Assembly: GCF_016406085.1 (NCBI RefSeq)
Contig: NZ_JAEHFJ010000001.1
Location: 682,001-746,000, forward strand
Reading direction: 5' to 3'
Length of the DNA: 64,000 nt
From: Aureibaculum flavum
GTDB lineage: Bacteria > Bacteroidota > Bacteroidia > Flavobacteriales > Flavobacteriaceae
Shown here: positions 21,046 to 58,763 of the stretch, one piece after another
How the letters are laid out: the number at the start of each line of letters is the position of its first letter
How positions within the stretch are numbered: the stretch's first letter is position 1
Program-made: the position numbers and the translations under genes
The notes under the pieces: generated by a model
Database searches by the model: none
What the model was told of the DNA's origin: nothing
Seen by the model: the letters and a program-made list of their open reading frames with translations, nothing else

Positions 21046-21156
21046 AAATTATTTGAATGAAAGGGTTAATTAATCTTAAAAAAACGAAATTATTGAATAA
21101 TGATTAATTAATTCTTAATGAAATGTTAAAGAAACAGTTAAGATTCAATCTTTGAC

Positions 21157-40232: not shown

Positions 40233-40712
40233 CTATTTTTTAATAATTTTAAAAGTTTTAATGGTTTTATAATCTGTAAAATGTAGGTTTACTAAATAGA
40301 GTCCGCTTTGCAATTGATCTACATTAATACTATTATTAGTTGCAGTCAGCTTTTCTGTTTTTATAAATTGCCCTAGACTGTTGTAAATCAAAATTTTTGT
40401 TTCTCCAGAAACATCATTTAGGTCAATATTTAAATTATCAGCCACAGGATTAGGATATACTTTAATTGCCGTACTCAACAATTGTTCATCAACGGCTAAT
40501 GTACTACCAGATGCTGCACCTGCTAAAAAACCTTGATTAATAATTGCACCGTTTTCAACTTTCCCAATTATCGGTTCTCCAATGGTAAAAGTAAGCGTGT
40601 GGTTTGCATTGCTAATGGTTTCCCCTCCAGAGGAAACGACCTGTTTGTCAATAGTTTGGGCGGTTGCCATATTTATGGTGGCCAGCAACACTAATGTGAA
40701 TATTGTTTTCAT
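40233..40712 (-). CDS. Short secreted protein with T9SS type A sorting domain
   Basis: A 159-residue protein: signal peptide to NMATAQ (19), a short SSGGETISNANHTLTFTIGE region, then the T9SS domain (KVYPNPVADNLNIDLNDVSG to KIIKK). It is mostly a sorting signal with a small passenger, as is common next to S74-chaperone surface proteins in Flavobacteriia. Probable partner of the two following genes. Confidence 0.85.
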   Translation of the reverse strand: MKTIFTLVLLATINMATAQTIDKQVVSSGGETISNANHTLTFTIGEPIIGKVENGAIINQGFLAGAASGSTLAVDEQLLSTAIKVYPNPVADNLNIDLNDVSGETKILIYNSLGQFIKTEKLTATNNSINVDQLQSGLYLVNLHFTDYKTIKTFKIIKK

Positions 40713-43586: not shown

Positions 43587-44243
43587 TTACAAAAAGACTG
43601 TAAATCCGATGCCAAGAAAAATTGAGGATAGGGTATCTTTATAGTCTGATGGTGCATCTTTGGGTAGGTTTTTTTCCCAAGAGTAATTTATGGTAGGTTC
43701 TAAAGCTACATGATCTCCTAGACTTATAGCATAGCCAACACCAGTTCTAAAACCCAATATTGTTGAGGTATTATCTCCAAGTTTTAATTCCGGTATACCT
43801 TCAAGTCCGCTTGATGTTTTTTTTGTACCCGCACCTACCAAACCTTCAAAAAACAAACCATTATCTAGATAATAGCGACCAAAAGCACCTAAAGATAATA
43901 CCGTGGTATTTCTTTTAGAATCACCAAAAAGACTCTTCGATTTCGAACTACTTGTAGCTACTGAAAGTTCTAAACCAACCGCCAAATTGTCCATAATAAA
44001 ATAACCTGCCTTTGGGGTAATATTTGTAGTAAATGAATTAGATTTATTATCATTTACATTATTAGAGGTATAGTGCACCAAAACACCTCCACTGATTAAA
44101 ATCTCACCTTGTGATCTTGCTCCACTAGTAATTGCCGACTCTTGAGCGTATCCGCTAAAACCAAATAGAGCAACTGTAAATGCAAGCATTACCCTTTTAC
44201 CTAAATAGATCGTGTTGCTTATTTTTTTCTTTAATAAATTCAT
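43587..44243 (-). CDS. Outer-membrane beta-barrel protein (OmpW/OMP_b-brl type)
   Basis: A 218-residue protein with a long signal region ending near GYAQE (residue 34). It is followed by an eight-strand-like barrel with alternating strands (GEILISGGVLVHYTS, GRYYLDNGLFFEGLVGAG, HVALEPTINYSW) and a C-terminal strand ending in GFTVFL. It sits in the outer membrane. It heads a unit with the 43014 lipoprotein and has a strong copy of the GTTAACC-N15-CATTAA motif upstream. Confidence 0.78.
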   Translation of the reverse strand: MNLLKKKISNTIYLGKRVMLAFTVALFGFSGYAQESAITSGARSQGEILISGGVLVHYTSNNVNDNKSNSFTTNITPKAGYFIMDNLAVGLELSVATSSSKSKSLFGDSKRNTTVLSLGAFGRYYLDNGLFFEGLVGAGTKKTSSGLEGIPELKLGDNTSTILGFRTGVGYAISLGDHVALEPTINYSWEKNLPKDAPSDYKDTLSSIFLGIGFTVFL

Positions 44244-44276
44244 GATTTTTAAAATTTTTTAATTGTTATTTATCCT

Positions 44277-44304
44277 TTAATGGTAATGATTAAAAAAGGT
44301 TAAC
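44277..44304 (-). promoter_or_regulatory. ECF-type motif upstream of the outer-membrane barrel gene
   Basis: GTTAACC, 15 bases, CATTAA, ending 33 bases before the ATG. Confidence 0.75.
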
Positions 44305-44433
44305 ATGTAAATATTAAAAAAGTTAAAAAAAGAGACAAAAGACTTTTTTTTTTATTGAACGAAATAAGTATTTCAATTCGATTTAGTTCAACATTAAATT
44401 AGAAAATTTGTAAATAAAAACACCGCTTTTAAA

Positions 44434-44482
44434 CAAAAAAAACTCCTGCAGTTCAATTAAGATAATGAACTCAAGAGTTTTA
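44434..44482 (-). terminator. Terminator after the frameshifted lipoprotein gene
   Basis: An AAAACTC...GAGTTTT stem with a long T-run on the minus strand lies 25 bp beyond the restored stop codon. Confidence 0.7.
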
Positions 44483-44506
44483 GTTTGTAACTATAAATTG
44501 TTATTT

Positions 44507-45089
44507 TTAAAAGTAACGAACTTCAGTTGGATGCTGGCCTAAGTAAATATTTAAATGCTTAACCGTTTGATTAGCACTTCCTGATTGGCCTCCATAATCC
44601 CTTAAATCAAAAGTTATACTACCTCCTATATCCTGGTTCGCAGGTACTTGTCTCATTATGAGCGTACCCTTATTAATTAGGTTACCTGTTACCTGTTATC
44701 GGATTATTAGCATCACCATTCCATCGAAACCATCTATTAAAACCATTATTATAATCCTCCCAATCGGTAGGTAACGATCCAACAATCTCAAAATGACCAT
44801 AAGAAAATACCATGCCCATATATTCTAAACCTCCAGTATCCAAACCTATATAATCTATTTCATAAGAAGCACCTGCAGTAAGATTTAACTGGAAACTTTC
44901 GAAATCATCATCTTGTGTAAAAGTACGTTCAAAACCCTCTCCCTTTATTTTAAAACTGAATGTAGGGGGGTCTGTATCTGTTGGAGGAATATCAGTATCA
45001 CAGCTTTGAAACGAAAAAGTTATCATAATTAACATACTTAAAAAAGTACTTTTTAAAACTCTCCTTTGATTTTTAATTAAATTCTTCAT
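44507..45089 (-). pseudogene. Paralogous lipoprotein broken by a 7-bp tandem duplication
   Basis: First of three tandem paralogs. The N-terminal part (signal, FQSCDTDIPPTDTDPPTFSF, then TQDDDFESFQLNLTAG) reads normally to the Asn-Pro-Ile-Thr-Gly-Asn at 44690. There AACAGGT occurs twice in a row (44684-44697), shifting the frame to a stop at 44682. Removing one copy restores a 191-residue protein whose tail (IGGSITFDLRDYGGQSGSAN to EVRYF) closely matches its paralogs. It is either a recent disruption, a reversible switch or a sequencing error. Confidence 0.85.
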
Positions 45090-45117
45090 TATTTTTTAAA
45101 TTATTGTTATTTGGGTA

Positions 45118-45145
45118 TTAATGATGCTAACTTTAAAAGGTTAAC
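45118..45145 (-). promoter_or_regulatory. ECF-type motif upstream of the frameshifted lipoprotein gene
   Basis: GTTAACC, 15 bases, CATTAA, 28 bases before the ATG. Confidence 0.75.
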
Positions 45146-45260
45146 TTTAAAAAGTTAAAAAGGAAAATTTACATGTTGTAACACTACTTAGTAGGTAAAA
45201 AACTTTTAGAAAATATATTAAATTAGTTATAAGAGTTTTTTTATTTACATATTTGAAAAA

Positions 45261-45830
45261 TTACTCTGAATAATAATGAATTTCTGTATCTTGCTGCCCA
45301 ACATCTATATTTAATTCGGCAAATGTTTGATTACTCGTACCAGCTTCTCCTCCATAATCACGTACATCTAACAAAAGTCCAAAAGCTAAATTATCACCAC
45401 TAACTCTAAATTTTCCATTTAGGATGGCTCCTGTAACAGGATTATTAACATCTCCTCTCCAGGTAACTGATGTTGATATTCCATTATTAAATCTTGATAT
45501 CCAAGTTGTTGGTAAGTCTGTCTCAATCTCAAAATGATCGCCTGGAAATTGCATTTGGGCTGATTTTAAACCATCAGGATCGCTCGCCGAAAAAATAAAA
45601 TCATAAAGTGCATCTTCGGTAAGGTTTAATTCAAAGCTACTAAAATCATCATCTTGATTAAAGATATGATCAAAACCTTCACCTGTTATTTTAAGACTAA
45701 AATTTGGAGGATCTGTATCTGTTGGAGGGATTTCTGTATCACAGCTTTGAAATGAAAAAGCTATTATTAGTAACATACTGAAAATGGCACTTCTGAATAT
45801 GCTACTCGGGTTTTTAGTTCTATTCTTCAT
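45261..45830 (-). CDS. DPPT-type lipoprotein, tandem paralog 2
   Basis: A 189-residue lipoprotein (FQSC lipobox, Cys29) with the shared DTEIPPTDTDPPNFSLKITG start, TFNQDDDFSSFELNLTED-like middle, and a tail FGLLLDVRDYGGEAGTSNQT. The domain family is unknown to me. The fold looks beta-rich with a conserved Asp cluster (QDDDF) that could bind metal. Transcribed alone from an ECF-type motif. Confidence 0.72.
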   Translation of the reverse strand: MKNRTKNPSSIFRSAIFSMLLIIAFSFQSCDTEIPPTDTDPPNFSLKITGEGFDHIFNQDDDFSSFELNLTEDALYDFIFSASDPDGLKSAQMQFPGDHFEIETDLPTTWISRFNNGISTSVTWRGDVNNPVTGAILNGKFRVSGDNLAFGLLLDVRDYGGEAGTSNQTFAELNIDVGQQDTEIHYYSE

Positions 45831-45857
45831 AATTTTTAATTTATTGTTAATTTGTTA

Positions 45858-45885
45858 TTAATGATTCTAATTTTAAAAGGTTAAC
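45858..45885 (-). promoter_or_regulatory. ECF-type motif upstream of lipoprotein paralog 2
   Basis: GTTAACC, 15 bases, CATTAA, 27 bases before the ATG. Confidence 0.75.
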
Positions 45886-45888
45886 ATT

Positions 45889-46482
45889 TTAGATTAATTT
45901 ATAAACGACACCTGTATCTTGATTTGTAATTACAATTTTTAATCGTTTATTAACTGTGTTTGATGGACCAGATTGCCCTCCAAAATCGCCTGCATGAAAC
46001 CAAAAATCTAGCGTATTAGACGCATTATTTTCCGCAGACATAGGGAATCGAAAATCACCTGTTAAGAATTGCCCTGTCTTTACATCTGCTGTTGTGGTAT
46101 CTGTCCATCTAATCCACATCGTATCTCCGAATACATTTGGGAGAATCTGCCAGGGATCCTCAACAGGTGTTATTAATTCAAATAATTTTTCAGGTTCTAT
46201 ATCCCATTCCATTGTTCTCAAACCACCTGCGTCTGCTGCTGCAAAAACGAAATGATAGTTTGTATTGCTCTTAACATAAAGTTCAAAATTTTCAAAATCA
46301 TCATCTTGAGTAAACGTATGGTCAAATCCGTCACCAGTTATGGTAAAACTGAATGTTGGAGGGTCCGTATCTGTGGGAGGTATTTCTGTATCACAACTCT
46401 GAAAGAGAAACCCCATGATAACTAACACTGAAAAGACCGTTTGTCTAACTATTATATTATGACAATTAATTAAATTCTTCAT
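45889..46482 (-). CDS. DPPT-type lipoprotein, tandem paralog 3
   Basis: A 197-residue lipoprotein (FQSC lipobox, Cys30) with DTEIPPTDTDPPTFSFTITG and FTQDDDFENFELYVKS. The C-terminal LDFWFHAGDFGGQSGPSNTV corresponds to the RDYGGQSG part of the paralogs. It is more diverged in the middle than the other two. The three genes probably arose by tandem duplication and now each have their own promoter motif. Function unknown. Confidence 0.72.
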   Translation of the reverse strand: MKNLINCHNIIVRQTVFSVLVIMGFLFQSCDTEIPPTDTDPPTFSFTITGDGFDHTFTQDDDFENFELYVKSNTNYHFVFAAADAGGLRTMEWDIEPEKLFELITPVEDPWQILPNVFGDTMWIRWTDTTTADVKTGQFLTGDFRFPMSAENNASNTLDFWFHAGDFGGQSGPSNTVNKRLKIVITNQDTGVVYKLI

Positions 46483-46505
46483 GATTTACGTTTTAGTATT
46501 TTCTA

Positions 46506-46533
46506 TTAATGTTTAAGTGAAGAAAAGGTTAAC
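46506..46533 (-). promoter_or_regulatory. ECF-type motif upstream of lipoprotein paralog 3
   Basis: GTTAACC, 15 bases, CATTAA, 23 bases before the ATG. Confidence 0.75.
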
Positions 46534-46577
46534 TTAATAACATATAATATTTGATATCCACCTTGAGTAAATTAAAT

Positions 46578-46667
46578 CTAAAGCGATAAAGTAATAGCAA
46601 TTCCAAAAGACAAAGGACTTACAACATCGTCAGGTAACTCGTCTCCCCTGTACCGATATCTCTTATT
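46578..46667 (-). pseudogene. Possible remnant of an outer-membrane barrel C-terminus
   Basis: The minus strand reads RYRYRGDELPDDVVSPLSFG then IAITLSL and a stop. The pattern (charged turn, proline, alternating final strand, terminal Leu) resembles the C-terminal end of the 43587 barrel. It is cut off by a stop at 46668, so only about 28 codons remain. Confidence 0.35.
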
Positions 46668-46675
46668 TTAATAAT

Positions 46676-47743
46676 TTATAAATCTATTTTTACCAATTTA
46701 TTTTTATCTTCATCATAATTTTTTGTGTTTAGCCAAAAATTGTTACCATCAAAAGCAATTCCAGAAATGGAGTTGTTATTAGGAAATGTATAACTCTCAA
46801 TAGCTTTAAAGTTTGGTGAAGTTTGACATTTATGTAGCTTGTTGCCATCCGTTATATATAAATATCCATTTTGATAATCTAAACCTCGGGGTTGAAATTC
46901 TAATGAGATAGTTTGCAAAACCTGTCCAGGAGAAAAAATTCCATTTGACTTATATTTGTAAAGTTTTTGTTCAGAATGACTAGAAATCCAAAAAAAACTT
47001 GGCTCAATAGATGCAATACCTCTTATCCAACTTCCCAAATCAATGGATTCATAATATTTAGACCCCGTAGTATATAAAAAAGAGGTGAATTTTGAGGAAC
47101 CTGCGTTACTTTGGAAAAGTTGTTTTAATCCAGAATTTGATTTTTCAATCTCTACGGCATAGGCGTTTAAAGTTGTAGACATCGTTTCATCAACAGCTAA
47201 CGTATTGGGATTCACTTTTAAAATTTCATCATCATCATTATTCCAACCTAAAATGTGTGTACCGTCAAAAGCAATATCGACATCCTTCTGCCAAGGGGCC
47301 AATCCTTCCGCTAAAACAGTTAACGGTTTTATCCAATCATCTAGTTCAGGACCTATCGAAGCTCTGGATAATAATACTGTGCTATTATCCGGATTCTGTA
47401 AAGAAAGTTCATCATTAACCAAGGTATAATTAACAATATAAGCACCTTGAGCGGTTAAAGTAATTTGATTATCTGTTATCGTACTGTTTGTAGACCATTC
47501 TCCTTTAAATCCCAATTCATCTTCCGATAAAATGTCAATGGTATTGTTTTCATTTATATAGACATATTTAGAATTATCTAATAAAAATTCTCCACTGGTT
47601 ACTTGCCATTTTCCAACTATGAGTTCTTTGTTGGTTGGTAAGTCTTGATCATCTCCGTTACGGCAACTTGAAATAACCATAATTATCAATAGCAAGCTTG
47701 ATTTTAAGATTATTTGGGCAATTGAATAGTTCTTATTTTTCAT
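46676..47743 (-). CDS. Lipoprotein with lipocalin-like domain and propeller-like body
   Basis: A 355-residue lipoprotein (VISSC lipobox) with a lipocalin-like N-terminal domain (LIVGKWQVTSGEFLLDNS). The rest (HILGWNNDDDEILKVNPNTL to GIAFDGNNFWLNTKN) shows repeated propeller-like strands of a six-bladed type. I start at the second Met (MKNKNYSIAQ) because it gives a normal signal peptide and a better distance to the promoter; the first Met would leave only 15 bases after the -10-like box. A single transcript with its own ECF-type motif. Confidence 0.7.
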   Translation of the reverse strand: MKNKNYSIAQIILKSSLLLIIMVISSCRNGDDQDLPTNKELIVGKWQVTSGEFLLDNSKYVYINENNTIDILSEDELGFKGEWSTNSTITDNQITLTAQGAYIVNYTLVNDELSLQNPDNSTVLLSRASIGPELDDWIKPLTVLAEGLAPWQKDVDIAFDGTHILGWNNDDDEILKVNPNTLAVDETMSTTLNAYAVEIEKSNSGLKQLFQSNAGSSKFTSFLYTTGSKYYESIDLGSWIRGIASIEPSFFWISSHSEQKLYKYKSNGIFSPGQVLQTISLEFQPRGLDYQNGYLYITDGNKLHKCQTSPNFKAIESYTFPNNNSISGIAFDGNNFWLNTKNYDEDKNKLVKIDL

Positions 47744-47788
47744 TTTTCTGTAACTATTGCTTGAATTTTTCATTTTTGTATATTTTAT

Positions 47789-47816
47789 TTTATGTGGTTA
47801 TATCCAAAGAGTTAAC
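47789..47816 (-). promoter_or_regulatory. ECF-type motif (variant) upstream of the lipocalin-propeller gene
   Basis: GTTAACT, 15 bases, CATAAA. This has the weakest first box of the set but the spacing is preserved. Ends 45 bases before the chosen ATG. Confidence 0.6.
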
Positions 47817-47833
47817 ATGGAACATGAGAAGTT

Positions 47834-49126
47834 CTAAATTTTCACAAACTCTACCCTTCTATTATTCGCTTTTCCTTCTGTAGTATTATTTTTATCGACA
47901 GGTTGTGTCTCTCCTTTACCTTCGGTCTGAAGTCTGGAATTATCAACATTAAATTGAGAATTAAGTGCATTTTTAACCGCAATAGCTCTTTGTTCTGAAA
48001 GCATCAAATTCGTATTATCATTACCATCAGCATCTGTGTGCCCGATAATATTTAATTTCAGATCTTTATCTTGCACTAATGCTTCGGCTATTTGTTTTAA
48101 AACCCCTGATGACTCTGGTTTAATCTGGTCTGAACCAGAATTGAATAAAATGCCTGTTGTAGAAAATTTTCCATTTTCCAATAATTGATTTCGTAAATCA
48201 ACACCGCCTTTTGCTATTTTCACATTATTAATAAAAACCTTATCGATACCATCTCTAACATCTCTTGGATGAAGTTTAAAAGATGAGATATTATCAGTCA
48301 ACAACCTGGGTACATCAACTACCTTATTTTCATTGACCCACAATCTAAAACGCTTGCCATTAACCGCTATTGAAACATGGTTCTTTTGTAATAGAATTTC
48401 CCTAATATCTTTTTCAACCGAATTACGAATGACTCGCTTTCCTTCCACTTTATTTTCAACAATAAACCCAACACTTATAAATAAGCATAGAGGAATTTCC
48501 ACTTTAGCCATATTTTTGGGTGTATCAAACATATTATTATCTTCTAACCAAATTTCTAATTTGGCTTGAGAACTTGTTTTTTTATCAACCACTGTAAGCA
48601 TATCAAACTCTATGGTATAATCTTCAGGTAAAGCAGAGGGCAAATCTGGAATATAGGTAGATTTACCTGCCAGTTTAAACCATTTTTCATTGTCAATAGT
48701 TACGAGTTCTCCGGTGCCATTTGTATTCCATTTAGCGGGAAAGTCCCCCATATGGTCTAAAGAAAAATCATCTGTCATTAGTATTTTATCTCCAGGAACA
48801 AAATCAAATTTTGAATAGACACTTAACTCGGTTAATGTTTCATTTGGTCCGGTTTGTACTGGGTTATTTCCTGTTTCTTGTGGTAATGAAATTATATCTT
48901 TCTTCTTTTTCTTGGTCTTCCTTTTTTTCTTTCCTTTATTATTGTTAAAAACAGTATCAAAAGCTTTATCCGTTTCATTTGAAGTTTTTTCTTCAACCTT
49001 TTTTTCTAAGGTGCGTTCGGCTGCTCTTTCGGCTGCTTTTCCTAATTTTTTAAGCAATTGTGCTTCTGCTTGTGTTGTAAAACAAGTAATTAACGTAAGT
49101 ATACTCAGTATTTTAAGTGCTTTCAT
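47834..49126 (-). CDS. OmpA-family outer-membrane protein
   Basis: A 430-residue secreted protein. The signal peptide ends at TQAEAQ (23), then a coiled and lysine-rich region (AAERAAERTLEKKVEEK), then a beta-sandwich of the concanavalin/LamG-like type (about 110-300). The C-terminal OmpA peptidoglycan-binding domain has GHTDADGNDNTNLMLSEQRA and TEGKANNRRVEFVKI. It links the outer membrane to peptidoglycan. It lies 91 bp after the small secreted gene and shares its transcript. No clear ECF motif of its own. Confidence 0.88.
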   Translation of the reverse strand: MKALKILSILTLITCFTTQAEAQLLKKLGKAAERAAERTLEKKVEEKTSNETDKAFDTVFNNNKGKKKRKTKKKKKDIISLPQETGNNPVQTGPNETLTELSVYSKFDFVPGDKILMTDDFSLDHMGDFPAKWNTNGTGELVTIDNEKWFKLAGKSTYIPDLPSALPEDYTIEFDMLTVVDKKTSSQAKLEIWLEDNNMFDTPKNMAKVEIPLCLFISVGFIVENKVEGKRVIRNSVEKDIREILLQKNHVSIAVNGKRFRLWVNENKVVDVPRLLTDNISSFKLHPRDVRDGIDKVFINNVKIAKGGVDLRNQLLENGKFSTTGILFNSGSDQIKPESSGVLKQIAEALVQDKDLKLNIIGHTDADGNDNTNLMLSEQRAIAVKNALNSQFNVDNSRLQTEGKGETQPVDKNNTTEGKANNRRVEFVKI

Positions 49127-49217
49127 GATATTATTTGTGAATTGTTTATTTTTTTAATTGAGTTACTATCTCATCCTCTAAATCTTCTAAAGCGTAGAAT
49201 CAATGTAAACCTTAAAC

Positions 49218-49583
49218 CTATTCCTTCTCTTTTTCAAGTTGAGCTTCCTTTATCTTTTCACCTAAAGCTCTACCCAATGAATCTTTTTGCTTTTGAGTTA
49301 AGTCTTTGGCTTGTAAATAGTATAAGTTTCTGTATTCTTCTTTTTGCTCTGTTGGTAAATTCATTTTTTTCAACATCTCCAAAAAATTCAACTTTTTACC
49401 TGATGTATTTCCATCTAGGTTTTCCCCAAAAACTTGCGTTAAACTTTTGGCTCCCATATCTAAAAAATTGTCGTTTTGTACTGACTTTTTTTCTGTTGTT
49501 GTGGTATCTTTTTTTGCTTGAGCGTAACTCGCATTAAAAATGCTTAAGCTTAGTATTGCTATTAAAATGTGTAGTGTTTTCAT
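49218..49583 (-). CDS. Small secreted hypothetical protein
   Basis: A 121-residue protein with a signal peptide ending near NASYAQ (20), then TTTEKKSVQNDNFLDMGAKS and a basic, charged C-terminus. I use the internal ATG (MKTLHILIAILSLS), which fits both the signal and the promoter position; the longer start would overlap the motif. No recognised domain. It heads the unit with the OmpA-family gene. Confidence 0.65.
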   Translation of the reverse strand: MKTLHILIAILSLSIFNASYAQAKKDTTTTEKKSVQNDNFLDMGAKSLTQVFGENLDGNTSGKKLNFLEMLKKMNLPTEQKEEYRNLYYLQAKDLTQKQKDSLGRALGEKIKEAQLEKEKE

Positions 49584-49611
49584 GAGCTTGTTTTTATTGT
49601 TTATTTTCTTA

Positions 49612-49639
49612 TTAATGGCTTCCAAAAAAAAAGGTTAAC
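49612..49639 (-). promoter_or_regulatory. ECF-type motif upstream of the small secreted gene
   Basis: GTTAACC, 15 bases, CATTAA, 28 bases before the ATG. Confidence 0.75.
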
Positions 49640-49647
49640 ATTAAACC

Positions 49648-49677
49648 AAAAAAAAAGCCAAGTTCTTGAACTTGGCT
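49648..49677 (-). terminator. Terminator after the 49758 gene
   Basis: AGCCAAGTTC/GAACTTGGCT stem with a T9 run on the minus strand. Confidence 0.9.
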
Positions 49678-49757
49678 CTGTTTAATTATTCGTTAAGTAA
49701 ATATTTTTAATCTCTATTTTTATCTTAAATCGGTGATGAATCTAATGTATATCAGAA

Positions 49758-50627
49758 TCAATAATTTTCGTAAACCCAACCTCTAGTCTCTGTACGATTA
49801 TAACTTGAGTCTGGAGAAAAAGAATATTCTAATTTCGCCGAGACGGGATAGTCATTTTCGTCATATACATAAGTATATGTCTGAGTAGCCGCATTACCAC
49901 TAGCACCTGTGACTTTTGAAGAAAGGATGTTATTTTTACTATAATAATATAACGTTTCATAAGCCGATTGGCCGCCAATGGATAGGTTGTAAATTATATG
50001 AAAGATATTAATTGTATTGCTATTTCCTGTTTTTGATAGCACATTGTAACTAGGATTATTCTTAGTATCAAAGGTATAATTACTTACAGAAACTTGACGA
50101 TATGAAGTACCATCGTAGCTTTTCTCTTTCAATTGTTGCACGATGTTGTTATTGTCATCATAGGTTAAGGTTATTCTTCCATAACCACGACCGTCAGCTC
50201 CTTTTTCAATAATAGTTTTTAACCTTTTGTTACCGTCATATTCAAATGTAGAAGTTGCAGTGCCAAGATCCCCTCTTTCATATTTTGAAACAAAGGAAAC
50301 TATTAAGCTATCCGTATTATAGACTATTTCGGTTTCGAGATTGCCAAAACTCCCTCCTTTATTACTAATAATTTGTGATACTTGTCCTAAATCATTATAG
50401 TTGTAACTTATCTTATCATTTTTTATGATTCTGCCTTCTGCATCGTAATTAAAGGTTGTATAACCAATCTTACTTAACCTATTGTCATCGGAATACACAA
50501 GATCAATCTCATTTACATTTTCCGTATATGATTTTAATCTCATATGCTCTCTTTGTCCATAGACACTATTAAACGTAATAAGTATCACGACTAAAATAAG
50601 TATGCTATTTTTAACTATTGATTTCAT
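49758..50627 (-). CDS. Secreted YD-repeat-like protein, paralog of the upstream gene
   Basis: A 289-residue protein with signal peptide ending near SVYGQ (25), then repeated YD-like strands (IGYTTFNYDAEGRIIKND, SYNYNDLGQVSQII, ATSTFEYDGNKRLKTI, ITLTYDDNNNIVQQL). These resemble RHS/YD repeats and DUF4595-type proteins of Bacteroidota, which form beta propellers or sheets at the surface. It lacks a lipobox, unlike its neighbour. It is 47 bp downstream of that paralog. Confidence 0.75.
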   Translation of the reverse strand: MKSIVKNSILILVVILITFNSVYGQREHMRLKSYTENVNEIDLVYSDDNRLSKIGYTTFNYDAEGRIIKNDKISYNYNDLGQVSQIISNKGGSFGNLETEIVYNTDSLIVSFVSKYERGDLGTATSTFEYDGNKRLKTIIEKGADGRGYGRITLTYDDNNNIVQQLKEKSYDGTSYRQVSVSNYTFDTKNNPSYNVLSKTGNSNTINIFHIIYNLSIGGQSAYETLYYYSKNNILSSKVTGASGNAATQTYTYVYDENDYPVSAKLEYSFSPDSSYNRTETRGWVYENY

Positions 50628-50674
50628 ATTTTAATACTTGTATTACACATAATGTTTAATGTAAATATAAACTT

Positions 50675-51526
50675 TTAAAAGGTTTCGTAAGTCCACGTTT
50701 TGTAACTAGTAGTATTTCTTTCAGGTTCATCTGGGTAGGTATATTCTATTTCTACAGAAATGGGATAGCTATTCTCATCATACACATAATCATAATCATT
50801 GATTCTATTGTAAGAACCATCTGAATATATGCTATTAGAAGATAATACATTATTTTTACTATTATAAAATACTGCATCAGAAGCATAATTACCAATTTGT
50901 AAATAACTTATAAATGGAAACATATTAATAACACTGGTATTACCCGTTTTGGTTAACACATTGTAATTGGGATTATTTTTGTTGTCATACGTATAATTAG
51001 TAACGTTTAACTCAGTATACGTAAGACCATCTCTAGTTTGCTCTATAAGATATTGCACAATATTATCCTTGGCATCATAAGCCAAAGTGATTTTATAATA
51101 AACAGTATTGTCTAGTCCTTTTTCAACAATAGTTGTTAATCTATCCTGACTATCGTATTCAAAGGTAGATTTTGACCTATCAGTAGAACGAAAAACCGTA
51201 TTAAAGGTTGCCATTAATCCTGAATTATTATAAACAATAGTTGTTTCTCGGTTAGTTCTAGTTACTTTCGAAACCCTACCCTGCCCATTATATTCATACC
51301 TGAATGATCCATTTTGAATAATTTTATTATCTCCATTGTAAATTACATCCAATGATTTGTATCGCGTTAAAAAACCATCGTCATTGTATCTAAGGTCATA
51401 TTCATTAGCTCCAATTGAATATGCAATTAACCTCACATTTTCTATTCTTGGTGCGTCATCATTCTTGCTACAGCTAAACAGGGTAATGGCTAAAATTGTA
51501 AGTATAATATTTTCAAATGTCTTCAT
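50675..51526 (-). CDS. YD-repeat-like lipoprotein
   Basis: A 283-residue lipoprotein (LFSC lipobox; I use the third Met, MKTFENII, which fits the promoter and signal). Repeats such as LRYNDDGFLTRYKSL, SFRYEYNGQGRVSKV and KSTFEYDSQDRLTTI are YD-like. It is a close paralog of the next gene in the operon, similar in order and length. Probable surface protein of unknown role. Confidence 0.75.
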   Translation of the reverse strand: MKTFENIILTILAITLFSCSKNDDAPRIENVRLIAYSIGANEYDLRYNDDGFLTRYKSLDVIYNGDNKIIQNGSFRYEYNGQGRVSKVTRTNRETTIVYNNSGLMATFNTVFRSTDRSKSTFEYDSQDRLTTIVEKGLDNTVYYKITLAYDAKDNIVQYLIEQTRDGLTYTELNVTNYTYDNKNNPNYNVLTKTGNTSVINMFPFISYLQIGNYASDAVFYNSKNNVLSSNSIYSDGSYNRINDYDYVYDENSYPISVEIEYTYPDEPERNTTSYKTWTYETF

Positions 51527-51543
51527 AATTATTTTTTTATTCA

Positions 51544-51571
51544 TTAATGTTTGCATTAAAAAAAGGTTAAC
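51544..51571 (-). promoter_or_regulatory. ECF-type motif upstream of the YD-like operon
   Basis: GTTAACC, 15 bases, CATTAA, 17 bases before the chosen ATG. Confidence 0.75.
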
Positions 51572-51623
51572 ATCATGGTCCTATTTATTATGGAACCTGA
51601 AGTATAATATGCCTATTTTCTAT

Positions 51624-52616
51624 CTAATAGGTTACTGTAAAAACTACTTTGGAAATTCCATAATTAGTTCCATCGTTTAAAGCTATCCCTTTACCATTCT
51701 TCCATATTTTGGCAAAAATAGTACTATCACCATCTTCATAGCCTGCAACATATATATCTTCTCCAGAAGCACATACTGAATAAACCTGTGCATCATAAGC
51801 TCCATTTGTTAACGATGTTTCTATTCCATTTTTCCACATTTTGGCTACTGTTTTTGTCTCAGAATCTTCATAACCTACCACATAAACATCTCCATCTGAA
51901 ACATATACTGAAGTTGCTTCTGCCTTGTTTACTCCACTTGTTAACGACTTTCCTATTCCATTTTTCCACATTTTGGCTACATTTTTAGTGCCATTGTTTT
52001 CATATCCAACGGCATAGACGTCAGTTCCTGTAACATACACAGATGTAGCTTGTGCATAATTAGTACCATCTGTTAGTGGTATTTCTATACCATTTTTCCA
52101 AATCTTAGCTACATCTATAAAATCTTTCTCTTCAAAACCTGCTACATATACTGTAAAGGCTTCTGAAAAATTAGTACCATCAGTTAAAGGTAATTCTATT
52201 CCATTTTACCATAATTTGGCATCACCAGATTCATAACCTGCCACATAAACATCAGTTCCTGAAACACACACCGAATTAGCTTCTGCGTTTTTACTCCCGT
52301 CAGTTAAAGAGGTTTCAGTACCGTTTTTCCACAATTTGGCTGTAGATTTTGGGCCATCATAAACAAACCCTGCGGCATATATATCATCCTGGGCAACAAA
52401 CACTGAAAGAGCTTCTGAAGTACGAGTTCCGTCCGTTAAAGGAGTGCCAATTCCATTTTTCCATATTTTAGCTACAGTTCTTAATCCGTTATCTTCAAAA
52501 CCTGCTACATATACATCAGTTGTTGTATTATTTTTTGGTGCGTCATCCTCCTTATTACAACTAAAAAGGGTTATGGCTAAAATTGTAAGGGTTATATTTT
52601 TTAATAATGTCTTCAT
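51624..52616 (-). pseudogene. Seven-repeat surface lipoprotein interrupted by a nonsense codon
   Basis: The reading frame from MKTLLKNITL (lipobox LFSC) runs for 330 codons with a single in-frame stop, TAA at 52206-52208. Other repeats have AAA (Lys) in the same WKNGI context. Seven repeats of about 44 residues share the form VYVAGYEDNG, then AKIWKNGIGTSLTDGT, which suggests a seven-bladed propeller. Without the stop it would be one intact lipoprotein. Single base change, phase switch or sequencing error cannot be told apart here. It lies 52 bp after the kelch gene, probably in its operon. Confidence 0.82.
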
Positions 52617-52668
52617 AAGTAATTATTTTAGCTTGTTGTTTTTATTTTTAATTAAGTATTAATAGTCT

Positions 52669-53697
52669 TTAATCTTCTTTAACACTCCATATTTTACCAG
52701 TAACTTCAGTATCGTTATCACCTGTTTTCCCTCCAAAAACCCAAAGTGCATCATTGTGTAACAACGCTTCATGAGCTCCAATTTCATCTATAGGATTGTA
52801 ATCTGTATGTTTTGTCCAATCGATAAGATTATCTGAATAATAAATATCATTGGTGAAAGGTTCCGTCTCTGTTCTTCCTCCTATCACCCAAACTTTATCA
52901 TTATAGACCGTGGCCGTATGCCCTAACCGTCCAGGAAAAATGGAACTATTAGTTGATACTAAGGACCAATTTGCACCATCAGTACTTTGCCAAATTTCGT
53001 TGAGTTTATTAGCCCCTATATCTTCACCTCCTATAACATACATGGTATTATTAAAAACTACTGCTTTATGTCTTACTCTACCTGAAAATGCATTTGCCGT
53101 TTCTTGCGTCCAGGTTTCACAATCTGATGTTGACCAAACTTCAGTAGCATTGGTAGACTCTTTCGCTGCTATTACGTACATTTTTCCATTGTAAACCGCG
53201 GTGGTATGGTATGCAACTATTCCAAAAGGTGCTGTTGTAGTTGGGGCATTAACCCAAGAACCTGCACTACCGTCTGATGAATACCAAATATCGCTTAACC
53301 ATTCATCGTCATTGTTTTCGCCACCAATCATCCATAATTTGCCATCAAAAGTGGTTAACGTATGCCCAGTTCTCGCTTCACCAACACCTGTAACCGAGAT
53401 CCAAGCTACACCATTAGTACTGGACCAAATTTGATTATCACTTGTTACATTATTTGTATAATCGTTATCTCCACCTGAAGACCATACTTTACCATCATGT
53501 AATGCCATAGCATTGCCAAAAAAGTCTCCCATTTGATCTTGATTTGTCTCTAGATTAAAAGTTAAGTCTAGCGGAGAAAGGATGTCTTTTTGTACTGGGT
53601 CGTCATCACAAGATGTAAAAGTTATTGCGATTATCAATGCTGTTATTATTTTCAGATAAAACTTTACTTGTTTTCTTATTTTCTTGATTGTATTCAT
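52669..53697 (-). CDS. Kelch-repeat lipoprotein
   Basis: A 342-residue lipoprotein (FTSC lipobox, Cys30) with six kelch repeats (for example DGKVWSSGGDNDY, DGKLWMIGGENNDD, NNTMYVIGGED, NDKVWVIGGRT), making a six-bladed propeller. Typical of surface binding modules. Divergent from the sigma factor gene, separated by 189 bp that holds one ECF-type motif for each direction. It probably leads the transcript with the interrupted repeat gene. Confidence 0.85.
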   Translation of the reverse strand: MNTIKKIRKQVKFYLKIITALIIAITFTSCDDDPVQKDILSPLDLTFNLETNQDQMGDFFGNAMALHDGKVWSSGGDNDYTNNVTSDNQIWSSTNGVAWISVTGVGEARTGHTLTTFDGKLWMIGGENNDDEWLSDIWYSSDGSAGSWVNAPTTTAPFGIVAYHTTAVYNGKMYVIAAKESTNATEVWSTSDCETWTQETANAFSGRVRHKAVVFNNTMYVIGGEDIGANKLNEIWQSTDGANWSLVSTNSSIFPGRLGHTATVYNDKVWVIGGRTETEPFTNDIYYSDNLIDWTKHTDYNPIDEIGAHEALLHNDALWVFGGKTGDNDTEVTGKIWSVKED

Positions 53698-53722
53698 AAT
53701 CTATATTTTTTTGTTTGACTTC

Positions 53723-53750
53723 TTAATGCAATTAATTTTAAAAGGTTAAC
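53723..53750 (-). promoter_or_regulatory. ECF-type motif upstream of the kelch lipoprotein
   Basis: GTTAACC, 15 bases, CATTAA, 25 bases before the ATG. Confidence 0.75.
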
Positions 53751-53859
53751 ATTTGTAAAAAAAAGTTGATGTTATTACCCCTGTACACATCCTTCTTTAT
53801 AAATAATTTCTGAAATCGACTATTTTCACAATAAAAATTTAAATTTGTTTGTAATTAGT

Positions 53860-53887
53860 GTTAACCTTTTTTACCAGTATCCATAAA
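53860..53887 (+). promoter_or_regulatory. ECF-type motif over the sigma factor start codon
   Basis: GTTAACC (53860-53866), 15 bases, CATAAA (53882-53887). The last A is the first base of the sigma ATG, so a start site downstream of this box could not give full-length protein. Autoregulation or a decoy role is possible. Confidence 0.6.
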
Positions 53888-54456
53888 TGGACAAAGAATC
53901 AGTAAATAATACGCTCGAAAAATTAAGAAAAGGAGATGAAGCAGCTTTTAAGCGTATTTACGAAGAAAATCGAGAGAAGTTTTTAAACTTTGCCAAACGA
54001 TATAACTTATCTGATGATGAAAACATAGATGCATATCAAGATGCCTATGTTATTTTTTACGAAAACATAATGTCGGGCAAAATCGAGAACTTTACCAGTA
54101 GTATTTCTACGTATTTGTTTAGCATTGGTAAATATTTAATTATGGATATTTTAAAAAAGAACAAGAAGCAAGTGAGTTCTGAGTTTAACCTCTCTATTGT
54201 AAAAGAAGATGATAATTTTATGGAGACTATTGAAATTGAAGAGAAAAGTATTAGCAAAGAGCAACAACTGTTACTAACATATTTTGAAACTTTAGGCAAA
54301 AAGTGTCAAGAACTATTAACCTTATTTTATTATAGAGGTTATACCATCAATGAAATAATGAAAAAAGAAAGTTACAATAGTGAAAATGTAGTAAAAAGCC
54401 AAAAGTCGCGATGCATGAAAACACTTAGAGAACGAATTAAATCAGATCATTTATAA
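53887..54456 (+). CDS. ECF-type RNA polymerase sigma factor
   Basis: A 189-residue sigma-70 family protein. Region 2 is clear (LRKGDEAAFKRIYEENREKF, then DENIDAYQDAYVIFYEN and STYLFSIGKYLIMDILKKNK). Region 4 is seen in TYFETLGKKCQELLTLFYYR, then GYTINEIMKKESYNSENVVK. It lacks the extra domains of housekeeping sigma. Its stop overlaps the next gene's ATG by one base (TAATG), a hallmark of sigma and anti-sigma pairs. I infer that it reads the GTTAAC-N15-CATWAA motifs around it. Confidence 0.92.
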   Translation: MDKESVNNTLEKLRKGDEAAFKRIYEENREKFLNFAKRYNLSDDENIDAYQDAYVIFYENIMSGKIENFTSSISTYLFSIGKYLIMDILKKNKKQVSSEFNLSIVKEDDNFMETIEIEEKSISKEQQLLLTYFETLGKKCQELLTLFYYRGYTINEIMKKESYNSENVVKSQKSRCMKTLRERIKSDHL

Positions 54457-55181
54457 TGGACAAAGAAGCATTATTAACCAACTATTTTTCTGACAGCTTA
54501 ACGGCTGAAGAACGACAATTATTTAACCAATTGTTAGAAAATGACACCAAATTTAAAGAACAATTTGAATTTGAAAAAGATTTAAAACGTGCCATTAAAG
54601 AAAAAGAAAGAATCCAACTAAAAGCAAAGCTACAAGATTTTGAAACTAAATTAAAACATAAATCAACACCAAAAACCAGCAATTACAAGGCTTGGGCAAT
54701 TGCAGCCTCCATTGCCATATTATTGAGTGTAGGTTGGTTTGGATATGATAATTTTATAAAGCTCGATTATAACGAATTGTATAGCGAAAATTTTCAACAA
54801 TACCCTAATACCAGTTATACCATTACCCGTGGAGACACTGATGACTCTACCGAAAGACAAGCTTTTGTAGCCTATGAAACCGGTAACTACAAAACTGCCA
54901 TTGAAAATTTTGAAAAATTAGATAGTAATGCTAAAGAATATATAGATTTCTACAAAGCTCAGACTTATTTAGAATTAAATAAAATCAATTCAGCAAAAAG
55001 CTTATTCAAAAAAGTAATTTCTGATAATGTTGAATTTGTGGCCGAAAGTCATTGGTATCTCGCACTAATCTCAATTAAAGAAAAAGATAAACAAAGTGCT
55101 ATTTCTTATTTAGAACAATTGGTTACAAACTATGATTTTAATAAAGAAAAAGCTGAAGTATTGTTAGATCACTTAAAGTAA
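54456..55181 (+). CDS. Probable membrane anti-sigma factor with C-terminal TPR
   Basis: A 241-residue single-pass protein. The first 70 residues (NYFSDSLTAEERQLFNQLLE and a charged helical stretch) face the cytoplasm. A membrane helix lies at about 80-95 (AWAIAASIAILLSVGWFGYD). The periplasmic part carries TPR-like helices (AFVAYETGNYKTAIENFEKL, SHWYLALISIKEKDKQSAIS). Coupled by TAATG to the sigma gene. The role as anti-sigma is inferred from position and topology; it lacks an obvious zinc-finger HC2 motif. Its end overlaps the convergent CHAT gene by 13 bases. Confidence 0.78.
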   Translation: MDKEALLTNYFSDSLTAEERQLFNQLLENDTKFKEQFEFEKDLKRAIKEKERIQLKAKLQDFETKLKHKSTPKTSNYKAWAIAASIAILLSVGWFGYDNFIKLDYNELYSENFQQYPNTSYTITRGDTDDSTERQAFVAYETGNYKTAIENFEKLDSNAKEYIDFYKAQTYLELNKINSAKSLFKKVISDNVEFVAESHWYLALISIKEKDKQSAISYLEQLVTNYDFNKEKAEVLLDHLK

Positions 55182-57937
55182 TTTCTTTTCCGGTTTCGAA
55201 AAACAAAGAATAGAATTAAAAACAAAAATAAACTACCTACCAAAAACCAAACCCACTTATAAGAACTTACAACTGCATTTGTATTTCCGGAAATAACAAA
55301 TCCCGACCAATAATATGGGTGAGCTAACGCATTTTGCTTATTCGCTTTTAAAAATTCTATTTTAGCTTTTTGAAGGGCTTTATCTTTAGAGCTTCCTTTA
55401 GCTAAATTTTTATAAAAATTATCCATTAACTGAGTGGAAGAAGCATCATTAACTTTCCATAGTGTACTAGCTATACTTGAAGCTCCACTATAGAAAAAAC
55501 CTCGGGTTAGGCTCATAAACCCTTCACCGCGTTTAAGTTCGCCAATCCCTGTTTCACATGCACTTAAGGTTACTAAATTAGCATGTAACGAAAGATTGTA
55601 CAAATCACTTACATACAACAAGTTACTACTCTTATTGTCAGGCGTAAACGCTAAATAAGAATACTCCGGATTTTTATCATCAAAAACAGCATGTGTTGCT
55701 AAATGAATTATACCATAATTGGCTATTTGAGATGTAAAATTAAACAAGGATGCTTTTTCATTAATAAAACCATTGCCTTCAAATGAATGCATAATTTGAT
55801 TTACCTCTTCTTTATTATGGGGTAATGGTAATAATATATCACTAAAATTATTATCGTTTTCAAAATTTGGAGCGAATGCCAAAACCGAGTTGGAATAGAT
55901 TTTATTGTCTTTTAATTCTATCCAAAGTGATGCCGAATTGGTATAACTAACACTCTTTTGTTCAATCAAATAGTTAATACCATCACTACTGGTATTTAAA
56001 CTTCCAAAAGGAATGTAATTCAATAATCCATCAGCTATGACAATCAATTTTTCCTTTGCTTCTTTTTTAATAATTGGCTTTAGCAACAATCGATACAAAT
56101 GATAGGTTTCATTAGCTAAAATAGAGACTTCGGATTTCGGATCACTCAACATTTTATAGATGTTTCGGGTATTATTCTCAAGAGCTTCATTATTTTCAAT
56201 TTTAAAGAATTCTTTAGTACTCCTTGTCAATGAAATAACATAAATATGTTTATCACCATAAAAATAAGAAACCAACATTTCATCATCTGTCAAATTATTT
56301 TGGGCTTCCTTTAAACTAACAACCTCCGTATTATATTTAAGATTATAATAAGCTTTATAATTTGTTTCAATAGTATTGATCAGACTACGATATTCTTCCT
56401 TAGTTGCAAACAAACGATCTTCCAAAACATTAGAGGAAGCTTTGCTTTTATTAATTTCTTTTTCTAAATAAGTAATTTGTGCCTTTAACTGTTTTTCTTT
56501 TTCAATTAAATCGTCTGGAATAGCTCCAAAGTTCGTGGCTTTTGCACCTAATAACGCTTCCATAAGTAAAATACCCTTACTTTTTTCAGAATAATAAAAT
56601 GCTTTATCTATTAATTCATTATTAGAATTAGATTTATATGAATTAAACAGTGCAGCAAGACCAGACTCAAATAATGGAAAAGCGTCCTCAATAAGTAATA
56701 ACTTATCAGCCTCACTTTTAAAAGAAGGCTTTAAGCTATCTAAAGTTTTAATACCAAAATCTACTGTTGAAATTACTTGCTCATTAGAATTTTCTAAATC
56801 ATAAGCACCGACAATCATTGCTTTATTTTTTAGTATTTTTAACAATGCCGATTTATTTGCATTCTTCTTAGATAATTGATTTATACCTTTATTAAAATTA
56901 TCAACCGCTTTTTGGGGTTCATTATAGGTAGCATGGAGTTGGCCGATTTGATCATAGAGCAAGGCTAATTTTTCCAATTCAATTCCGTCTGACTCTTTTT
57001 GTAATAGTTGAACTGACATATCATATTCTAATACTGCATTATCATATTCTTTATTTTTTTTATAAATTTCTGCTTTTGAAGTATGATATTTATTTAAAAA
57101 AATATGATTTTCAGGAATATTGGCTTTCATTAAATCTAAATAAAAATATGCACTGTCAATTTTATTAAGGTTCAAGTAATTTTCAACTAATAGTGAAGTC
57201 TCCGTAATTAATGCATTTGTATTTCTAGAATTTTTTAAATTAAATTCTAATGATTTTTTTAAATACGTATTTGAGAGAGCAAATTGCTTTTCATTTTTAT
57301 ACACTTCGGCTAATAAACTATAGACTCTGTAAAGTGATTTTTTATCTTCTGAATTTTTAGTAATTAAAAACCGAATGTTTTTATCATAAAACTCTTTGGC
57401 TAATTCAAATTTATGCTCATTTACATACATTTTAGCAGTAAAACCATAAGCTACAGCTAAAAGTGATTTTTGGTTATCATCTAATTCATTTATTGGGAGA
57501 CTTTCACATTTTTTTATAATTTCATTAAAAAAATGTCTAGCTTTTTCATAATCTTCTAAAACAAAATTATACATTCCTTTATCATATAAAAGTGAGTTTG
57601 TATAATATAATTTATCAGGCCTTTTATCTAAAAAGTCTTTGTATTGAACAAAAATAGAATCCGTTAATTTAATATTTGATTTGAGCTTTTTATAATTATT
57701 ATGATACCCAGCAACTCGATTAAAATCCATTGTGGTCTGAATATACTTGCCAATGTCATCATTCTGTTTTGCTACATTACTAATTTTGTCTAAATAATAG
57801 TAAGTAGAATCTTCGTTTTTAAAAACATGTTTATACAGTTTTTTAGTCAAACTATCTATGTTCTGGTCACTACTTCGCTGAGCATATATATTATTCGTTA
57901 GATTTAAAAATAAAAGACAATAGCAAATCTTTTTCAT
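55169..57937 (-). CDS. TPR-CHAT protease with signal peptide and C-terminal membrane helix
   Basis: A 922-residue protein: signal peptide (ending near NNIYAQ, residue 20), many TPR units (about 40-480), a coiled region (about 480-560), then a caspase-like CHAT domain. The catalytic pair is visible: His749 in IHLATHAVFDD and Cys794 in LVTLSACETG. A membrane helix at 894-913 (WVWFLVGSLFLFLILFFVF) and a basic tail end the protein, so the protease domain should sit in the periplasm. It faces the sigma/anti-sigma pair tail to tail with a 13-bp overlap. A role in cutting the anti-sigma or another envelope sensor is inferred, not shown. Confidence 0.9.
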   Translation of the reverse strand: MKKICYCLLFLNLTNNIYAQRSSDQNIDSLTKKLYKHVFKNEDSTYYYLDKISNVAKQNDDIGKYIQTTMDFNRVAGYHNNYKKLKSNIKLTDSIFVQYKDFLDKRPDKLYYTNSLLYDKGMYNFVLEDYEKARHFFNEIIKKCESLPINELDDNQKSLLAVAYGFTAKMYVNEHKFELAKEFYDKNIRFLITKNSEDKKSLYRVYSLLAEVYKNEKQFALSNTYLKKSLEFNLKNSRNTNALITETSLLVENYLNLNKIDSAYFYLDLMKANIPENHIFLNKYHTSKAEIYKKNKEYDNAVLEYDMSVQLLQKESDGIELEKLALLYDQIGQLHATYNEPQKAVDNFNKGINQLSKKNANKSALLKILKNKAMIVGAYDLENSNEQVISTVDFGIKTLDSLKPSFKSEADKLLLIEDAFPLFESGLAALFNSYKSNSNNELIDKAFYYSEKSKGILLMEALLGAKATNFGAIPDDLIEKEKQLKAQITYLEKEINKSKASSNVLEDRLFATKEEYRSLINTIETNYKAYYNLKYNTEVVSLKEAQNNLTDDEMLVSYFYGDKHIYVISLTRSTKEFFKIENNEALENNTRNIYKMLSDPKSEVSILANETYHLYRLLLKPIIKKEAKEKLIVIADGLLNYIPFGSLNTSSDGINYLIEQKSVSYTNSASLWIELKDNKIYSNSVLAFAPNFENDNNFSDILLPLPHNKEEVNQIMHSFEGNGFINEKASLFNFTSQIANYGIIHLATHAVFDDKNPEYSYLAFTPDNKSSNLLYVSDLYNLSLHANLVTLSACETGIGELKRGEGFMSLTRGFFYSGASSIASTLWKVNDASSTQLMDNFYKNLAKGSSKDKALQKAKIEFLKANKQNALAHPYYWSGFVISGNTNAVVSSYKWVWFLVGSLFLFLILFFVFRNRKRNYFK

Positions 57938-57970
57938 AAAACTTAGTTATACATTTAATCACAATTTACA

Positions 57971-58023
57971 AAAAAAGTAATAAGCTCTTTAATATGTAAT
58001 TATTTTACATATTAAAGAGCTTA
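57971..58023 (-). terminator. Bidirectional terminator between the CHAT gene and the 58062 lipoprotein
   Basis: An 18-bp perfect stem (57981-57998 with 58006-58023) has T-runs on both sides. It ends the 58062 transcript; the CHAT gene must start from its own promoter in the 40 bp that follow. Confidence 0.9.
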
Positions 58024-58061
58024 TTTTTTAGACTTATAAATAATGTTTGAATTTTTAATTT

Positions 58062-58703
58062 TTATTTCACTTTATCTTCAATATAACCTTCCAGCATATA
58101 ATCCAAAATAATTTCACCTTTAATATTTTTCTCGATTACTTTTATAAAAACAGGGCCAGAATAGCTTTTAGTTAAGTTAAAGTTTGCATAACTAACGTTT
58201 TTCTCATTATCTAGTAAAGGCTTAAATTGATTGTCCATTTTACTTATCAAATCACCTGATGCATTATATATAGCAACTTCTAATATCGATTCACCCAAAG
58301 CCACTTGTGAGTTGGCAAGCGTAACAATATATTTTAGATTTTCAATAGAAGGCAAGCACAAATCACATGGCCAAACCGGTCCTATAATTCCCCAACTAAC
58401 TAAATCTGCATAGTTAGCAATATTAGCTTTAAGATTTGATCTAGAATCTTCAGCCATTTCTTTTTCAATTTTAGCTTTCTCGTCTTTAGGATTTTGAACA
58501 AGCACTGCATCTAAGCTATCTATTACTTTTTCTATATTTATTATCTCAATTTTATAATATTCATTATCTAAATACTCTTTATAAATAAAATTATCTTCTT
58601 TTAAAATAGCTTCTGGGTAACTTCCTACACCTGTATTACTACAAGACATTACCAATCCCACTAATAATAGCAATGTTAATTTTAATCCGTGTTTTTTCAT
58701 CAT
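58062..58703 (-). CDS. Hypothetical lipoprotein with helical and beta parts
   Basis: A 213-residue lipoprotein (VMSC lipobox, Cys21). The first part is helical and charged (IEKVIDSLDAVLVQNPKDEK, KIEKEMAEDSRSNLKANIAN). A PVWPCDLCLPSIE segment with two Cys follows, which could form a disulphide or bind metal. The second part is beta-rich (ILEVAIYNASGDLISKMDNQ, SYSGPVFIKVIEKNIKGEII), similar to a carbohydrate- or wall-binding sandwich. No named domain recognised. It is separate from the CHAT gene but carries the same promoter motif. Confidence 0.65.
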   Translation of the reverse strand: MMKKHGLKLTLLLLVGLVMSCSNTGVGSYPEAILKEDNFIYKEYLDNEYYKIEIINIEKVIDSLDAVLVQNPKDEKAKIEKEMAEDSRSNLKANIANYADLVSWGIIGPVWPCDLCLPSIENLKYIVTLANSQVALGESILEVAIYNASGDLISKMDNQFKPLLDNEKNVSYANFNLTKSYSGPVFIKVIEKNIKGEIILDYMLEGYIEDKVK

Positions 58704-58735
58704 TTTAATATTTTAAGTTAGCACTATTTTTCTTA

Positions 58736-58763
58736 TTTATGTATTTTTAACAAATGGGTTAAC
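58736..58763 (-). promoter_or_regulatory. ECF-type motif upstream of the 58062 lipoprotein
   Basis: GTTAACC, 15 bases, CATAAA, 32 bases before the ATG. The bases after the first box are CATTTG rather than TTTT. Confidence 0.65.

Follow-up and report, generated by a model that had tools for sequence, protein, structure and literature searches.

Which regulator reads ten near-identical bipartite DNA elements in Aureibaculum flavum, and what would it do at the one copy that touches its own gene? The elements, of the form GTTAACY-N15-CATWAA, lie in a 64,000-nucleotide stretch (hereafter the window; C1:682001-746000 of G000, a genome of 4.75 Mb in 40 contigs) around a gene for an extracytoplasmic function (ECF) sigma factor, which is followed by a gene for a tetratricopeptide repeat (TPR) membrane protein and, convergently, by one for an exported TPR-CHAT protease. 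We propose that the elements are promoters of this sigma factor, that the protease releases it, and that it limits itself at its own site; for the explanation taken whole we put the probability at roughly 0.68. The -35 box would be GTTAACC, mostly followed by TTTT, and the -10 box CATWAA, and the sigma factor would switch on the clustered genes for exported lipoproteins, propellers and outer-membrane proteins. The product of the next gene, the TPR protein, would keep the sigma factor at the inner membrane until, upon an envelope signal, the exported, membrane-anchored cysteine protease would probably cut this anti-sigma in its periplasmic linker and so release the sigma factor. At the sigma-gene copy, sigma-bound RNA polymerase would cover the housekeeping promoter that produces the sigma mRNA, and the transcript made from that copy would begin inside the gene and lack the sigma start codon. 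The outcome would be self-limitation of the sigma factor, possibly with the supply of anti-sigma continuing.

A zero-mismatch scan returned exactly the ten sites that the sequence-only reading had listed, on the same strands and each with a 15-base spacer, while 100 dinucleotide-preserving shuffles of the window gave a mean of 0.03 and a maximum of 1. When two mismatches were allowed, 22 matches were found against 17.8 expected; since these are close to background, only the exact set is meaningful. All ten sites contain the AAC core and have a gap of 16 from AAC to CAT, in agreement with the ECF-like spacing pointed out earlier, and the -10 box begins with CAT, not the common CGT. Each of the nine minus-strand sites stops 15-33 bases short of a likely start codon, much as had been noticed; for the site at 51544 we took the ATG at +17 as the start, not the ATG overlapping the box. 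The suggestion that these genes lack the housekeeping box TAnnTTTG, the -7 box described for the primary sigma factor of Flavobacterium psychrophilum (PMC9723704), stood for the target promoters (0/9 have one within 110 nucleotides (nt)) but not for the sigma gene, which carries TAAATTTG. Because the same crude test finds the box before only 5 of 33 other window genes, its absence alone says little.

Genome-wide, the exact pattern occurs 11 times and its reversed control 3 times. Ten of the 11 fall inside a 14.5-kb block, and the only exact site beyond it (L011, C12:204869-204896) precedes a lipoprotein gene whose product resembles, by eye, those encoded at 44682-46482. A relaxed version of the motif is at background (23 matches versus 27 for the reversed control); among its 12 matches outside the block, four lie within a same-strand open reading frame (ORF) and eight have no ORF start (of at least 50 codons) within 150 nt.

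The protein encoded at the centre of the block matches the NCBIfam sigma70-ECF family TIGR02937 above its cut-off (52.3 versus 42.9 bits, over residues 20-183) and Pfam Sigma70_r2 slightly below it (21.9 versus 24 bits). It has the regions 2 and 4 of an ECF sigma factor only; at 189 amino acids there is no room for regions 1 and 3. In a sample of 299 Flavobacteriaceae genomes, own genome included, an orthologue (E 1e-25 or better) is present in 52. The strict motif GTTAACCTTTT-N11-CATWAA was counted at 55 sites in 23 genomes, all of them among these 52 and none among the 247 that lack the orthologue (Fisher p 2.5e-20, ignoring shared descent), whereas the seven sites of the reversed control fell in 0/52 and 7/247 genomes, respectively. 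The motif is present in the genomes of 20 of the 21 closest sigma factors. An extra search for close orthologues across the order added only L146, and a search of plasmids for relatives gave three records at 28-33% identity. Within the genus, the three genomes whose sigma factors are at least 84% identical (G000, G001 and G004) have 9, 6 and 5 strict matches; the other 14 have one each in G002 and G008 and none in the rest.

A site matrix was trained on 22 sigma-gene sites, all from other species and two from the same genus, which had been collected by a search allowing box-to-start gaps of -6 to +17. This matrix ranked the ten window sites 1-9 and 11, rank 10 being a one-mismatch match at 21115, and its best scores at the sigma paralogues of the same genome (-4.3 for L013, -11.5 for L014 and -13.2 for L015) indicated that these are without a site. 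With a loose pattern, 12 orthologue-bearing genomes gave 77 matches, 50 of them no more than about 16 kb away from the sigma gene; the reversed control gave 26, so most of the distant matches are probably background. Taken together, these comparisons strongly argue that the locally encoded sigma factor reads the sites, as the sequence-only reading had supposed, and we regard this part of the explanation as very probable. In G123, three strict sites cluster on a contig other than that of the sigma gene (C17:120162-124191), perhaps a second regulon block.

To describe the regulon, we took the matrix sites other than the sigma-gene ones in the window and 25 further stretches (26 in all). Such sites number 95, of which 83 are followed by an ORF start at a distance of 8-120 nt. 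By a simple test, 82 of these 83 predicted products carry an export or lipoprotein signal, and inspection by eye makes the remaining one a lipoprotein; of 33 other window genes, 17 are positive in this test. In tblastn searches (E 1e-4) of 24 loci, the OmpA-family gene has a relative in 21, the kelch gene in nine, the lipoproteins 46676 and 45889 in six and five, and five others in one or two. The regulon therefore appears to combine a fixed core with envelope proteins that can be exchanged. Many target lipoproteins in L126, L130, L136, L138, L140 and L145 have, by eye, collagen-like G-x-x triplets right after the lipobox. Two adjacent short ORFs on the minus strand of the window (52206-52616 and 51624-52040) contain propeller-like repeats that resemble each other, and the pair may be a single interrupted gene; a start similar to theirs has its own site in L062.

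How would such a sigma factor be held and released? The stop codon of the sigma gene lies -14 to +8 nt from the start of the TPR gene in 46 loci. AlphaFold predicts for the TPR protein a helical N-terminal domain, a helix at about residues 79-100 (with low confidence at residues 68-100), a linker containing N118 and R125, and TPRs from residue 132. Hydropathy at position 79 is above the cut-off in 27 of 50 rows, and N118 and R125 are present in 47/47 rows of one alignment; a first cut would be expected in this linker. The predicted topology and the gene order are compatible with a membrane anti-sigma of the class I type. Across the 56 loci examined (L029 and L127 being one genome), the TPR protein was found in 54 and the CHAT protein in 51.

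The candidate protease consists of an apparent signal peptide, TPRs (27-540), a CHAT domain (553-885; Pfam CHAT, 4.6e-61, 207 bits) with H749 and C794, and a C-terminal membrane helix (894-921). The His/Cys pair is intact in 50/50 aligned rows, Q20 at the apparent end of the signal peptide is invariant in 35 rows, and the C-terminal hydrophobic helix, which has a basic tail, is above the hydropathy cut-off in 43 of 50 rows. A Foldseek search with the structure model (predicted local distance difference test 86) returned Cas7-11-Csx29 at the top together with further Craspase entries (E 3.7e-14; TM-score, relative to the query, 0.45), with the transmembrane anti-sigma DdvA sixth and separase further down. 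Using a profile of the CHAT domain only, the solved relatives below E 0.001 are the Craspase CHAT proteins and 8rot/8rw5 (DdvA). Domain, catalytic pair and structural match together predict a CHAT peptidase.

That this peptidase cuts the anti-sigma is, in our judgement, an even bet. The gene set is retained in most loci, the catalytic pair in all rows, and the closest solved CHAT proteins come from two ECF sigma systems; these points speak against the protease serving instead as some other sensor or effector of the envelope response, with the sigma factor freed by a different route such as a site-2 protease or a partner switch on the TPR domain. We nonetheless give this alternative appreciable, if lesser, weight: the anti-sigma is a putative substrate, the CHAT gene is not directly adjacent in L028, L127 and L107, and several loci encode a divergent CHAT protein, with 24-26% identity in six rows.

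An exported protein of either 157-228 or 421-465 amino acids is encoded just before the CHAT gene in 24 of 25 close loci, and 23 of these proteins are lipoprotein-like by eye. A candidate site precedes the lipoprotein-CHAT pair in eight of 24 loci (the window, L060, L062, L129, L132, L135, L137 and L139), so that in some species the regulon may include the protease itself. The divergent CHAT proteins belong to L028, L127, L129, L130, L133, L136 and L138, the six low-identity rows being all of these but L127, and in six of the seven loci a lipoprotein of 421-465 amino acids replaces the one of about 200.

Returning to the sigma factor, the placement of its own site differs from that of all others. 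The final base of the plus-strand box CATAAATGG is the first base of the sigma ATG. Each of the 25 close loci, namely the window and 24 others (covering 18 genera by label plus the unlabelled L028 and L030), shows this abutment, with a gap of -1 to +1 between box and start codon. Of these abutting sites, 23 were located by the matrix, its 22 training sites included, and those of L128 and L144 have a 16-base spacer. In L146, from the same genus as L133 and L138, the box-to-start gap is 0. By contrast, the first ATG of target genes lies at least 14 bases past the box in 82 of 83 cases, the exception being the site at 51544 with its likely start at +17. Transcription from ECF promoters starts several bases beyond the -10 box, so that the predicted start would fall at about codons 2-4 of the sigma gene. 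A canonical autoregulated ECF operon has space for its mRNA to begin between the sigma-dependent promoter and the start codon; no such space is left in 25/25 close loci. A conserved alternative sigma start was not seen: eight of the 25 have no in-frame ATG, GTG or TTG in codons 2-40, and in the others such codons are scattered. Given that the sigma gene's copy is placed on the start codon in all close orthologues, it would not be expected to serve as a simple promoter for positive feedback.

Just upstream of the site, within 40 nt, a TAnnTTWG box is found at 18 of 23 sigma genes versus six of 83 targets, and 18 of the 20 matches at sigma genes lie 9-12 bases from the site. For comparison, the median 5' leader reported for F. 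psychrophilum is 24 bases (PMC9723704). On the simplest reading of this arrangement, a housekeeping promoter would serve the sigma gene and its transcript would cross an ECF site that competes with that promoter. The layout is compatible with negative autogenous control of the HrpL kind, and we lean slightly towards negative autoregulation through the abutting site. The fuller picture, in which the start-codon promoter of these 18 labelled Flavobacteriaceae genera is an off-switch giving an mRNA for the anti-sigma only and the periplasmic CHAT cut is the on-signal, is tentative, and we would not put it at even odds.

The same geometry could be read in the opposite sense, with the sigma factor reading all sites but its own copy being an ordinary positive-feedback promoter that yields a leaderless mRNA from the ATG. 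The abutment of CATWAA and start codon, which never deviates by more than one base among the 25 close loci, is what a leaderless design might demand, and positive autoregulation is usual for ECF sigma factors in the published overview (PMC8103513). However, a start at the ATG would lie about one base past the -10 box instead of several, the target genes with the same box begin well downstream, and leaderless mRNAs are given as only 5.5% of the mapped mRNAs of F. psychrophilum (PMC9723704); we therefore consider this reading unlikely. It is highly improbable that the sites have another reader altogether, be it the AraC-type protein encoded at 58900-59736, a two-component regulator or a repressor: GTTAAC is palindromic and the AraC-type gene adjoins the block, but tblastn at E 1e-4 gave no match to this gene in 24 orthologous stretches of about 20 kb each, on which ground we rejected it, the motif tracks the sigma orthologue, and the conserved unit is two boxes at a near-fixed, sigma-like spacing.

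Several points weigh against the proposed combination of sigma promoters, CHAT-mediated release and self-limitation. The counts linking motif and sigma factor include shared descent, uncorrected, and the strict match in G008 occurs without a close sigma factor. For the TPR protein, hydropathy at position 79 in the window protein is 1.66, below the cut-off of 1.7; N118 and R125 are found in 48 of 50 rows of a wider alignment; and there is no match to a Pfam or NCBIfam anti-sigma family. The case for the predicted proteolysis is built from gene linkage, catalytic residues and topology, and a site ahead of every lipoprotein-CHAT pair, which we had considered as a rule, was dropped as not general given the 8/24 loci. 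Among 23 distant sigma orthologues (40-50% identity), a clear abutting site is present in only five (L108, L114, L120, L121 and L123). TAnnTTWG is weak as a consensus and missing at five of 23 sigma genes, and a self-limiting site would depart from the mostly positive autoregulation of published ECF sigma factors (PMC8103513). Finally, the close spacing of the sigma and anti-sigma genes means that anti-sigma translation may be coupled to that of the sigma factor, and a transcript without the sigma start might then yield no anti-sigma. The features discussed are collected in Table 1.

Table 1. Positions in the window of the sites, boxes and genes considered here.
Feature	Position	Strand	Context or basis
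Site	44277..44304	-	before outer-membrane beta-barrel gene 43587-44243
Site	45118..45145	-	before lipoprotein gene 44682-45089
Site	45858..45885	-	before lipoprotein gene 45261-45830
Site	46506..46533	-	before lipoprotein gene 45889-46482
Site	47789..47816	-	before lipoprotein gene 46676-47773
Site	49612..49639	-	before small exported protein (start 49583) and OmpA-family gene 47834-49126
Site	51544..51571	-	before RHS-like-repeat genes 50675-51526 (lipoprotein) and 49758-50627
Site	53723..53750	-	before kelch-repeat lipoprotein gene 52669-53697
Site	58736..58763	-	before lipoprotein gene 58062-58703, CHAT protease gene next downstream
Site at sigma gene (CATAAATGG)	53860..53887	+	CATAAA overlaps ATG
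Housekeeping -7-like box (TAAATTTG)	53840..53847	+	12 bases upstream of sigma-gene site, 47 nt before ATG
ECF sigma factor gene, 189 amino acids	53887..54456	+	NCBIfam TIGR02937 and Pfam Sigma70_r2
Probable anti-sigma, TPR membrane protein	54456..55181	+	AlphaFold model, Pfam TPR, alignment; role suggested by position and topology
Exported TPR-CHAT protease, convergent with sigma operon	55169..57937	-	Pfam CHAT, conserved His/Cys, structure model, Foldseek
Lipoprotein gene directly upstream of CHAT gene	58062..58703	-	neighbourhood survey of close loci

At 40233-40712 on the minus strand, the window also encodes an exported protein whose C-terminus looks, by eye, like a sorting tail for type IX secretion.

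The proposed arrangement has relatives among described systems. In Craspase (type III-E CRISPR), as reported in PMC10028731, a TPR-CHAT protease, an inhibitor and an ECF sigma factor are likewise encoded together, sites for CASP-sigma are predicted within the locus itself, and Csx29 cuts Csx30, the inhibitor of the sigma factor; by analogy, the same logic may operate here in the periplasm. In structure, Cas7-11-Csx29 gave the top matches, with modest TM-scores; in sequence, CHAT proteins of Craspase ranked highest. The two systems differ in that the targets here are envelope proteins and that export or membrane signals are present on both protease and inhibitor, which would place the cutting in the periplasm. 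A CRISPR effector was not seen among the 20 proteins searched with Pfam or the four searched with PADLOC, which was as far as the search went, and a reading of the locus as a defence system was set aside, these four proteins having no PADLOC match. DdvS-DdvA of Myxococcus xanthus (8rot, 8rw5; PMC4374960) similarly combines an ECF sigma factor with a CHAT-containing transmembrane anti-sigma; anti-sigma and CHAT apparently share one chain there and are two separate proteins here. In the ECF54 group, CHAT proteins occur in the gene neighbourhood, and proteolytic control has been put forward (PMC8999054).

On the release side, RseA/DegS/RpoE resembles the pathway suggested here in that a membrane anti-sigma is cut on its periplasmic side, and differs in having DegS where the present locus has a caspase-like CHAT protease and in the positive-feedback promoter with which RpoE is described (PMC10028731, PMC8103513). 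On the feedback side, HrpL of Pseudomonas syringae is an ECF sigma factor whose RNA polymerase complex is reported to occlude the promoter of its own gene (PMC5263251), as we propose for this locus; the HrpL complex acts from the hrpJ promoter, which is divergent, and the promoter that it covers is of the sigma-54 type, whereas the site here faces in the direction of the sigma gene and lies on its start codon. Neither the sigma/TPR/CHAT triad nor the start-codon promoter was found in a search of the open-access literature.

For the Flavobacteriaceae, these results would define the promoter code and the regulon of a sigma factor present in 52 of the 299 genomes sampled, and the signal chain that probably controls it. 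They would also tie CHAT proteases to envelope signalling outside CRISPR, and they point to a sigma factor that may limit itself through the position of its own promoter, a case that can be tested cleanly.

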